A DNA stretch of 64,000 nt, taken from contig NZ_LMEA01000011.1 in the NCBI RefSeq assembly GCF_001425235.1, forward strand, positions 558,001 to 622,000, read 5' to 3'. This stretch comes from Devosia sp. Root413D1 (GTDB lineage Bacteria > Pseudomonadota > Alphaproteobacteria > Rhizobiales > Devosiaceae). The notes under the pieces were generated by a model. That model had not been told where the DNA came from. It did no database searches and saw only the letters and a program-made list of their open reading frames with translations. The translations under genes were made by a program, and so were the position numbers. Position 1 is the first letter of the stretch. Every line of letters starts with the position of its first letter. This document shows, piece after piece, positions 13,409 through 24,125 of the stretch.

Positions 13409-13867
13409 ATGGTAACAAGCGATCCAGCACACCTGATGCGCGATCTCACCCGGGACCTGCTGCTCACCGGGCGGCTGTGGCGCAAGATGGCGCGGGCCGT
13501 CGCTGCCAAGCATGGCGTGTCCGAGGCTGCCTCGGCGCCGCTGATCTGGATCGACCGTCTCGGCGAGAATGTGCGCCAGAACGCCCTCGCCGACGCCATC
13601 GGCATCGAAGGCGCCTCGCTGGTCCGGCTGATCGATGAGCTGCAGGCTTCCGGCCTCGTCACCCGCGAGCCCGACCCCACCGACCGCCGCGCCAACGCCG
13701 TCTCCCTCACCGACCGAGGACGCGAGGTCGTCGCCGAGGTCAACGAGGACGTGATGGCGCTCCGCCGCCAGGTGCTCGGCGCGCTCGACCCCGCCGACTT
13801 CGAGGCGGCGCTGCGCGTCTTCGCCGCCATCAAGACGGCGGCCGCCAGGGATGGCGGCGAGCAGTAG
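13409..13867 (+). CDS. MarR-family transcriptional regulator
   Basis: 152 residues, winged-helix MarR fold. The helix-turn-helix is around QNALADAIGIEGASLVRLID (~58-77) and the wing is LVTREPDPTDRRANAVSLTD (~84-103), with the D-x-R-R motif typical of the family. Flanking N- and C-terminal helices form the dimer interface. The ATG at 13409 lies inside a palindrome, without an obvious Shine-Dalgarno, suggesting a leaderless or nearly leaderless message and autorepression. It is divergent from the ABC permease operon (start 13059), a plausible target. Confidence 0.88.
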   Translation: MVTSDPAHLMRDLTRDLLLTGRLWRKMARAVAAKHGVSEAASAPLIWIDRLGENVRQNALADAIGIEGASLVRLIDELQASGLVTREPDPTDRRANAVSLTDRGREVVAEVNEDVMALRRQVLGALDPADFEAALRVFAAIKTAAARDGGEQ

Positions 13868-13895: not shown

Positions 13896-13924
13896 GTGAC
13901 AAGTCAGTAAAGCTCGGCTACAAA
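13896..13924 (+). promoter_or_regulatory. Promoter of the aromatic attenuator/DAHP synthase transcript
   Basis: GTGACA (13896-13901), 17-bp spacer, TACAAA (13919-13924). The expected transcription start, about 7 nt downstream, coincides with the leader-peptide ATG at 13932. A leaderless start is known for the rhizobial trp leader. Confidence 0.5.
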
Positions 13925-13931
13925 CCCGCCC

Positions 13932-14006
13932 ATGAACCTTCGCGCCGCCTATTCGTATTGGTATTTTACCACCGGAAGCCGCTGGCAGCCGAAGGGGCGC
14001 GTTTGA
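13932..14006 (+). CDS. Aromatic-rich leader peptide (24 aa) of a transcription attenuator
   Basis: Encodes a 24-residue peptide beginning MNLRAAYSYWYF with Trp again at residue 18. Five aromatic codons (Tyr, Tyr, Trp, Tyr, Phe) lie within residues 7-12, far above chance. It ends at TGA 14004-14006, 27 nt before a strong terminator hairpin. Ribosome stalling at scarce Tyr/Trp/Phe codons would free CTGGCAGC (13982-13989). That can pair with GCCGCCAG (14038-14045) and prevent terminator formation. The downstream gene is DAHP synthase, the entry step to exactly these amino acids. Such leaders are a known alphaproteobacterial design (trpL). Confidence 0.8.
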   Translation: MNLRAAYSYWYFTTGSRWQPKGRV

Positions 14007-14032
14007 CGTAAAACACCAAACCGAGATTTCCC

Positions 14033-14064
14033 AAAAAGCCGCCAGATCACCTGGCGGCTTTTTT
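14033..14064 (+). terminator. Attenuator terminator before DAHP synthase
   Basis: AAAAAGCCGCCAG (14033-14045), loop ATCAC, CTGGCGGC (14051-14058), then six T (14059-14064). It lies 36 nt before the DAHP synthase ATG, so it must be read through for expression. The left arm can alternatively pair with 13982-13989 (7 of 8). Confidence 0.9.
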
Positions 14065-14099
14065 GTCGCCGGTGCCGAGAACCCCGAGGAGCCGACGAC

Positions 14100-15146
<1,047 letters not shown>

Positions 15147-15176
<30 letters not shown>

Positions 15177-15428
15177 CAGACGCCACCGAAGCCGGCAGTC
15201 GGCGACCCTCTCCCGCTTGCGGGGGAGGGGGGGACCACGCGAAAGCGTGGTGGGAGGGGGGTGCCCCACGCACTGATCGTAAGCGGACTGGGCGGAGGCC
15301 AGAGTTTGTGGCACCCCCCTCCCACCAGCCTTTCGGCTGGTCCCCCCCTCCCCCGTAAACGGGAGAGGGTCGCCGACTGCCGGCTTCGGTGGCGTCTGCT
15401 ACGCCACCAACTGCCCCGTCACCCGGCG
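15147..15428. repeat. 119-bp-arm inverted repeat duplicating the 3' end of the DAHP synthase gene
   Basis: Left arm 15147-15265 and right arm 15310-15428 are near-identical reverse complements over their full length. Only the hairpin loops differ (CTTGC/TTTAC, and ACGCGAAAGCGT against AGCCGAAAGGCT). The left arm begins inside the last ten DAHP synthase codons, so the right arm carries an inverted copy of coding sequence. It fills the gap before pgsA (start 15447). Confidence 0.92.
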
Positions 15429-23795: not shown

Positions 23796-24125
23796 CTACT
23801 GAGCTCCCGGTTGCCGATAGCCGACAGTTTGCGCACGGCTCAGCGCGGCCAGGGTCTCCTCCACCGTCAGCAGTGGCGTCGTCTCGAATTCGGCCACCGC
23901 GCCTCCGCCTCCGATGGCAATAGCCACGGCGGCCATGGCAACATTATTGGGCGCCTCCCACAGGTTGTACCCATCATGCGCCCCGAACGCGTACCAGAAG
24001 CCGTGCAGCTTGCCGCCTACGGATTCGATGTACTTGCGTGCAGCCTCGCGGCGGTCTTCCGGATTCTTCGTCAGTCGCGCCCAAGTCTCCGGCGTGTAGC
24101 TGAAGCGTGTCAGATAGAGTGCCAT
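23796..24125 (-). CDS. GYD-domain protein, 109 aa
   Basis: Small alpha-beta protein of the GYD family, named for the motif seen here as AFGAHDGYNLWEAP (~46-59). It begins ALYLTRFSYTPETWARL, the usual first strand and helix, and includes VAMAAVAIAIGGGGAVAEFETTPLLT. GYD proteins are ferredoxin-like and resemble Dabb/YciI folds; no biochemical role is established. Convergent with the PetP gene (stops 2 nt apart). RBS GGAGCTCAGCC precedes the ATG. Confidence 0.88.
   Translation of the reverse strand: MALYLTRFSYTPETWARLTKNPEDRREAARKYIESVGGKLHGFWYAFGAHDGYNLWEAPNNVAMAAVAIAIGGGGAVAEFETTPLLTVEETLAALSRAQTVGYRQPGAQ

Follow-up and report, generated by a model that had tools for sequence, protein, structure and literature searches.

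3-Deoxy-7-phosphoheptulonate (DAHP) synthase governs the flow of carbon into the shikimate pathway. In Escherichia coli, according to the excerpts of the cited articles on which this and the following comparisons draw, the control of this step is shared by three isoenzymes and two repressors, TyrR and TrpR (PMC5343134). The aroF gene of the Actinobacterium Corynebacterium glutamicum is preceded by a putative leader peptide with Phe-Tyr-Phe, from which attenuation was deduced (PMC4046766); this leader, likened here by description only, also stands before a DAHP synthase gene. Likewise, the uORFC-13-1 motif, also compared by its description, is an upstream ORF with a terminator before a DAHP synthase gene (aroF), represented by 24 sequences from Acholeplasma and environmental DNA (PMC8632094). 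Moreover, a table drawn from an attenuator website gives putative attenuators for two Vibrio species, in each case for an aroAIalpha_Y > tyrA operon (PMC1173090), and Shewanella aroF is listed with an "attenuator sensing tyr-tRNA" (PMC2659441). These last cases differ from the one described here, since they concern a Tyr-type isoenzyme with tyrA in Gammaproteobacteria, and the excerpts give no leader-peptide anatomy; in our scan, the Vibrionaceae aroG loci (L070 and L077) had no such leader.

In Sinorhizobium meliloti, trpL is leaderless and its released products, the RNA rnTrpL and the peptide peTrpL, act in trans, as stated in the excerpts (PMC7298713, PMC10117765). The locus analyzed here resembles trpL in its leaderless ORF, attenuated biosynthetic gene, and released short RNA, all predicted here (PMC7298713), and the S. 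meliloti system differs in its Trp codons, its target, trpE(G), and the trans roles shown there. The Phe_leader family (RF01859), which comprises attenuators of pheA and pheST, has, like our locus, a terminator downstream of an aromatic leader peptide; unlike Phe_leader, the leader described here precedes aroG, mixes Tyr and Trp codons with Phe codons, and has a promoter at leaderless spacing. In a search of 301 bases, RF01859 matched positions 13931–14067 over its full length with 32.6 bits (E 7e-4), without reaching its gathering score of 55, and no Rfam family was found at the gathering threshold in the whole window, i.e., the entire 64,000-nucleotide stretch of Devosia sp. Root413D1 DNA analyzed in this work. 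Among 20 loci compared at the Rfam gathering thresholds, the matches were one pheS and one pheA leader, with none in the 17 aroG loci or the one tyrS locus. Conversely, pheS and pheA leaders are recovered by R1, the covariance model derived from 54 of 75 aroG leaders; one pheS leader and one pheA leader pass the RF01859 gathering score.

A description of this aroG attenuator was not found in the excerpts of the literature searched, among the matches listed and with subscription literature mostly outside the scope of the search; the aroG attenuator is thus apparently an undescribed, widespread family with a mechanism of a well-known kind. One RNA switch seems to integrate three end products in families beyond the enteric model. 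If true, this would add a family missed by the curated thresholds of Rfam at the loci tested, would provide a testable annotation rule for aroG leaders in Alpha-, Beta-, and some Gammaproteobacteria, and would be relevant to the engineering of aromatic production in these hosts.

Organization of the aroG locus

The features of the locus are the following:
13896..13901, forward strand: -35 element GTGACA, read from the sequence
13919..13924, forward strand: -10 element TACAAA, with a 17-bp spacer to the -35 element and seven bases to the ATG
13932..14006, forward strand: leader ORF, 24 codons plus TGA, conserved 5' of aroG and predicted to be leaderless
13937..13942, forward strand: region 1, CCTTCG, predicted by folding to pair with CGAAGG if the ribosome is absent
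13950..13967, forward strand: regulatory codons 7–12, Tyr Ser Tyr Trp Tyr Phe
13982..13989, forward strand: region 2, CTGGCAGC, antiterminator 5' arm, within the leader ORF
13990..13995, forward strand: CGAAGG, partner of region 1 in the predicted fold, with a U-A/C-G co-change in Devosia
14038..14045, forward strand: region 3, GCCGCCAG, terminator left arm and antiterminator 3' arm
14051..14058, forward strand: region 4, CTGGCGGC, terminator right arm
14059..14064, forward strand: terminator T run, six T, read from the sequence
14100..15176, forward strand: aroG, class I DAHP synthase, 358 aa (NCBIfam aroFGH TIGR00034)

The aroG product scored 531 bits against TIGR00034 (NCBIfam cut-off 173), and D. 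insulae, the nearest species to the window, has an AroG that is 98% identical. The 24-codon ORF at 13932–14006 codes for the peptide MNLRAAYSYWYFTTGSRWQPKGRV, whose aromatic residues are Tyr7, Tyr9, Trp10, Tyr11, and Phe12, and also Trp18. Region 2 can form seven of eight pairs with the terminator left arm, with one A.C mismatch; the terminator loop between GCCGCCAG and CTGGCGGC is ATCAC, and the stretch from the ATG through the T run measures 133 nt. The promoter GTGACA-N17-TACAAA, the aromatic 24-codon frame, and the six-T terminator reported in the initial annotation were all found in the sequence, and the alternative 7/8 pairing of the left arm with 13982–13989 was also confirmed.

The region before aroG is, with a probability that we put at about 90%, a ribosome-mediated transcription attenuator, as conservation and predicted folding (see below) strongly support; the earlier claim of an attenuator controlling DAHP synthase is therefore supported, with regulation as a prediction. 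Ribosome stalling, transcription termination, and a response to each of the amino acids are inferred, the probable course of events being the following:

i. Transcription would begin at or beside the leader ATG, and a ribosome would initiate on the leaderless end.

ii. With any aromatic aminoacyl-tRNA in short supply, the ribosome would stall at codons 7–12, with its front edge before region 2; region 2, being free, would pair with the terminator left arm, and RNA polymerase would continue into aroG.

iii. With all three aromatics in ample supply, the ribosome would reach the stop codon and cover region 2; the terminator hairpin would then form and a 133-nt RNA would be released.

A MarR/SlyA-like gene (13409–13867), for which all the NCBIfam matches listed were below their cut-offs, lies on the same strand and ends 64 bp 5' of the leader. 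In principle, the hairpin might represent a constitutive terminator of this gene, which ends at 13867, with the short ORF arising by chance. We consider this explanation highly improbable, since both the ORF and the hairpin recur with aroG across many families and shuffled sequences rarely reproduce the geometry of the switch. As regards chance, clusters of five aromatics in six residues occur in 3 of the 564 ATG frames of 12–40 aa that the window contains on its two strands, i.e., the aroG leader and two nested frames at 23828 and 23873 on one strand, and conservation across genomes rules out a chance origin of the aroG leader.

An inverted repeat (15147–15428) with 129-nt arms, 92% complementary and separated by 24 nt, includes the 3' end of aroG. 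Elsewhere in the genome, a class II DAHP synthase gene is present (L099, G000:C8:373969-375285; PF01474, 698.6 bits), and the scan of the 400 bases upstream of it retrieved no aromatic leader.

Predicted alternative folding and conservation of the stems

The attenuator reading was analyzed by folding the leader with the ribosome at successive positions. In the window, before the synthesis of region 4, the antiterminator probability was 0.81–0.99 with the A site at codons 7–12 and 0.00 from codon 16 onward; the Trp18 codon falls in the non-permissive stretch. With assumed footprints of 10–16 nt, codons 7–12 all had values of at least 0.81, and with 18 nt, codon 12 dropped to 0.71. With no ribosome, the specific antiterminator had a probability of 0.00, yet the left-arm core was 0.89 paired elsewhere. 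In full-length equilibrium folds of the window leader, the terminator had a probability of 1.00 at all ribosome positions; since the terminator always wins at full length, the switch would have to be kinetic.

The same computation was carried out on 163 distinct leaders, obtained from 201 upstream regions (75 + 126) by removing repeats and non-matching regions, i.e., those without a matching leader and a CCGCC/GGCGG terminator. With the ribosome stalled on the aromatic cluster, the left-arm core was sequestered with a mean probability of 0.94 (above 0.5 in 162/163 leaders); with the ribosome at the stop codon, the mean was 0.17, with values below 0.2 in 102/163 leaders and not in the other 61. 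A clean switch was defined by a value of 0.8 or more with the ribosome on the final aromatic codon of the cluster and of 0.3 or less with the ribosome on the stop codon; 56% of the real leaders show it (44% miss it), versus 3% of 978 dinucleotide-shuffled spacers. With no ribosome, the sequestration of the left arm across the family averaged 0.55, exceeding 0.5 in 91/163 leaders and remaining below 0.2 in 28/163. These computed folds support a mutually exclusive antiterminator whose 5' arm a stalled ribosome would leave free.

The conservation of the stems was evaluated on an alignment (A1) of 54 of the 75 leaders; 10 had been removed by a 97% identity filter and 11 by hand, being near-duplicate or oddly framed (L012, L020, L022, L027, L033, L035, L044, L060, L063, L089, and L096). 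Conservation peaks at the aromatic cluster, the region 2 core GGCGG (GGCAG in the Devosia group of the window), and the CCGCC/GGCGG terminator. In the 54 rows, 98.4% of the terminator cells are paired, with a G-C to A-U exchange of the outer pair in 25/54 rows. The corresponding value for the antiterminator is 85.6%, compared with 15.6–53.0% when it is slid by 1–3 columns, and in Devosia one pair of the antiterminator core is an A.C mismatch (12/54 rows). The core CCGCC/GGCGG is nearly invariant, and the evidence of covariation therefore sits in the flanking pairs. The antiterminator has 13 cells changed on both sides versus a shuffled mean of 5.3, kinship inflating such cell counts, and the number of doubly changed pairs is not above that of the shuffles, being reached by 108/500 of them for the antiterminator and 115/500 for the terminator. 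The absence from relatives of the aromatic codons or of the two alternative stems had been named in the initial annotation as grounds for refutation; both are conserved, and the outcome speaks for the attenuator.

Two other helices were considered as cross-group signals and rejected. The outer antiterminator helix gave a derangement value of 0.32 (not significant; the anchoring was wrong for L017 in region 2 and for L088 in region 3), and the generic region 1 helix gave 0.12 (not significant).

A consensus structure search on the 54-row alignment found the terminator as the sole structure. This bears on the possibility that a riboswitch or a protein-binding leader uses the same terminator before aroG, with an incidental ORF: a conserved leader with a terminator before a biosynthetic gene is indeed the usual setting of a riboswitch. 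Nevertheless, we consider this very unlikely, given that no other consensus structure emerged, that no Rfam family reached its gathering score in the window or the 17 aroG loci tested, and that the aromatic cluster of the ORF is kept while its other residues vary.

As for region 1, codons 2–4 are predicted to pair with codons 20–22, in a stem that might act as an anti-antiterminator and so favor termination by default; its sequences are CCTTCG/CGAAGG in seven leaders and CCTCCG/CGGAGG in five. Codon 3 (CTT or CTC) matches codon 21 (AAG or GAG) in 12/12 Devosia leaders, with no mixed case; these 12 are the leaders of this type among 20 rows compared, and five of the seven CCTTCG rows are near-copies. 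The codon 3 change is synonymous. The CTT/AAG versus CTC/GAG types require three changes on the aroG tree, one of which is forced by well-supported branches, and 110–116 of 500 label shuffles gave an equally low number. Recombination could move the two leader types, which have the look of entire haplotypes.

Aromatic codons and predicted leaderless start

Phe, Tyr, and Trp are all present in the cluster of 145/163 distinct leaders, and Phe and Tyr in the remaining 18/163. The leader is therefore predicted to read the supply of the three amino acids jointly, in agreement with the initial proposal of joint Tyr/Phe/Trp sensing; a sensor of the shortage of any aromatic would fit an enzyme of the common pathway better than a sensor of a single amino acid.

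In Devosia, the nucleotides of region 2 occur in two reading frames, as SRWQPEGRV in L098 and PLAAGGVRSI in L097, within the stretch CGCTGGCAGCCGGAGGGG(C/T)GCGTT(T/C)GATCT; thus, what is conserved there is the RNA and not the peptide. This is relevant to a possible additional role in trans of the 133-nt RNA, as put forward in the initial annotation, or of the peptide, similar to that of rnTrpL/peTrpL, which is compatible with cis attenuation, the odds of the two overlapping. The architecture matches that of S. meliloti trpL, whose RNA and peptide are described as trans-acting in the excerpts (PMC7298713, PMC10117765). We regard such a role as improbable here, in that the peptide is not conserved in its C-terminal half, which is read in another frame even within Devosia, and the cis switch suffices to explain the conservation of the nucleotides.

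Returning to the cis attenuator, the position of the promoter was compared among groups of leaders, whose labels were in part based on kinship code and on the resemblance of the leaders. The TA of the -10 element lies 12–14 nt 5' of the ATG in 89/93 distinct Devosiaceae leaders and in 51/57 other alphaproteobacterial leaders, and a -35-like motif (TGAC, CGAC, or TTGC) lies 34–36 nt 5' of the ATG in 83/93 of the former. Both elements occupy these fixed positions in 82/93 Devosiaceae and 46/57 other alphaproteobacterial leaders; at a control position (27–29 nt 5' of the ATG), TA occurs in one and none, respectively. Xanthomonadales leaders keep the -10 position in 12/14 cases and both elements in 6/14. 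The beta/other leaders (n = 48) have the -10 position in 16 cases and both elements in four, and 23 of them have a TA at 40–43 nt instead, so that many of these leaders are probably not leaderless. A stricter promoter test ([GT]TGAC, 16–18, [TC]A) was passed by 75/150 alphaproteobacterial leaders, 0/48 beta/other leaders, 0/14 Xanthomonadales leaders, and 0/955 random anchors. Furthermore, no Shine-Dalgarno-like motif (AGGA or GGAGG, 4–16 nt 5' of the ATG) was found in any of 212 distinct leaders. From the fitting promoter spacing and the absence of this motif we infer a transcription start at or beside the leader ATG and ribosome loading on a leaderless end; the leaderless leader of the initial annotation fits the -10 spacing (89/93) and the 0/212 Shine-Dalgarno-like motifs.

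In the 2.0-Mb Devosiaceae genome G100, the aroG leader (L219) retains its aromatic codons and has ATC in place of the ATG start, as if its translation had been lost.

Distribution and evolution of aroG with its leader

Among 98 related aroG loci, 75 have an aromatic ATG ORF with a terminator, 20 have no ORF (one of which had just 52 bases upstream), and three have the ORF without a terminator, as called by script. R1 matches its own genome once and, at no less than 57 bits, 104 of 136 Devosiaceae genomes; the gene following these matches was read for all but G028, G054, G074, G076, G082, G083, G084, G087, G089, and G097. In a sample of the order (297 genomes), R1 matches were traced to aroG in 39. 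Of 385 evenly sampled alphaproteobacterial genomes, 14 were matched by R1 (E ≤ 1e-6), and the AroG protein (E ≤ 1e-70) was found in the same 14; R1 and aroG adjoin in 13 of them, and in G605 they lie at the ends of different contigs. At the phylum level, 53 of 398 genomes had R1 matches (E ≤ 1e-6), followed by aroG in 47, pheS in four, and pheA in one, the next gene having been read in all but G950; NCBIfam names pheA and two of the four pheS genes, the remaining two being assigned by likeness. The next gene in the 137 loci L100–L236 is aroG in 126 and tyrS in five, and the other six are weak matches of 26–31 bits. Weak R1 matches (26–34 bits), mostly partial, were taken as chance, six full-length ones being inspected.

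The aromatic cluster, region 2, the terminator, and the promoter spacing are kept across Devosiaceae and other Alphaproteobacteria; Xanthomonadales share the cluster, region 2, the terminator, and the -10 spacing, with the exception of the -35 element.

In a quick AroG tree of 129 rows, the known alphaproteobacterial and Xanthomonadales sequences form one branch of 63 rows (SH-aLRT 99), of which 60 are labelled attenuated, two none, and one contig end. Both "none" rows of this branch have a hairpin by eye, and one of the leaders is GTG-started. The labels come from a strict regular expression, which assigned "none" to 25/129 aroG rows, two of which had fewer than 180 bases upstream; hairpins recognized by eye in L032, L247, L029, and L051 indicate that this label undercounts attenuators. 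By the strict scan, the attenuator is absent from the AroG rows of Vibrionaceae, Pantoea, Methylotenera, and Zoogloeaceae.

The patchy distribution in Alphaproteobacteria (14/385), together with the full co-occurrence, suggests that aroG and the attenuator travel as a unit; alternatively, the pattern may reflect losses since a common ancestor. We give even odds to the view that promoter, pan-aromatic leader, antiterminator, and terminator make up one portable cassette, inherited and transferred with class I aroG, by which Alphaproteobacteria would have gained a DAHP synthase responding to a shortage of any aromatic, with a leaderless 133-nt RNA as a by-product. Like this strain, Alphaproteobacteria can also have a leader-free class II DAHP synthase.

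Genome G107 (60% complete) harbors two aroG loci (L169 and L206), each with its own attenuator. Lastly, five tyrS leaders from Hyphomicrobiales (family code f41; L224, L226, L227, L228, and L229), lying near position 200 in the oriented locus, contain a Phe/Tyr-rich ORF, e.g., MTKMTATFVYFYYVTSIPAAT, and a GCCGCC/GGCGGC terminator and are related to the aroG leader; tyrS was named by NCBIfam in L224, L227, and L229 and assigned by likeness in L226 and L228.
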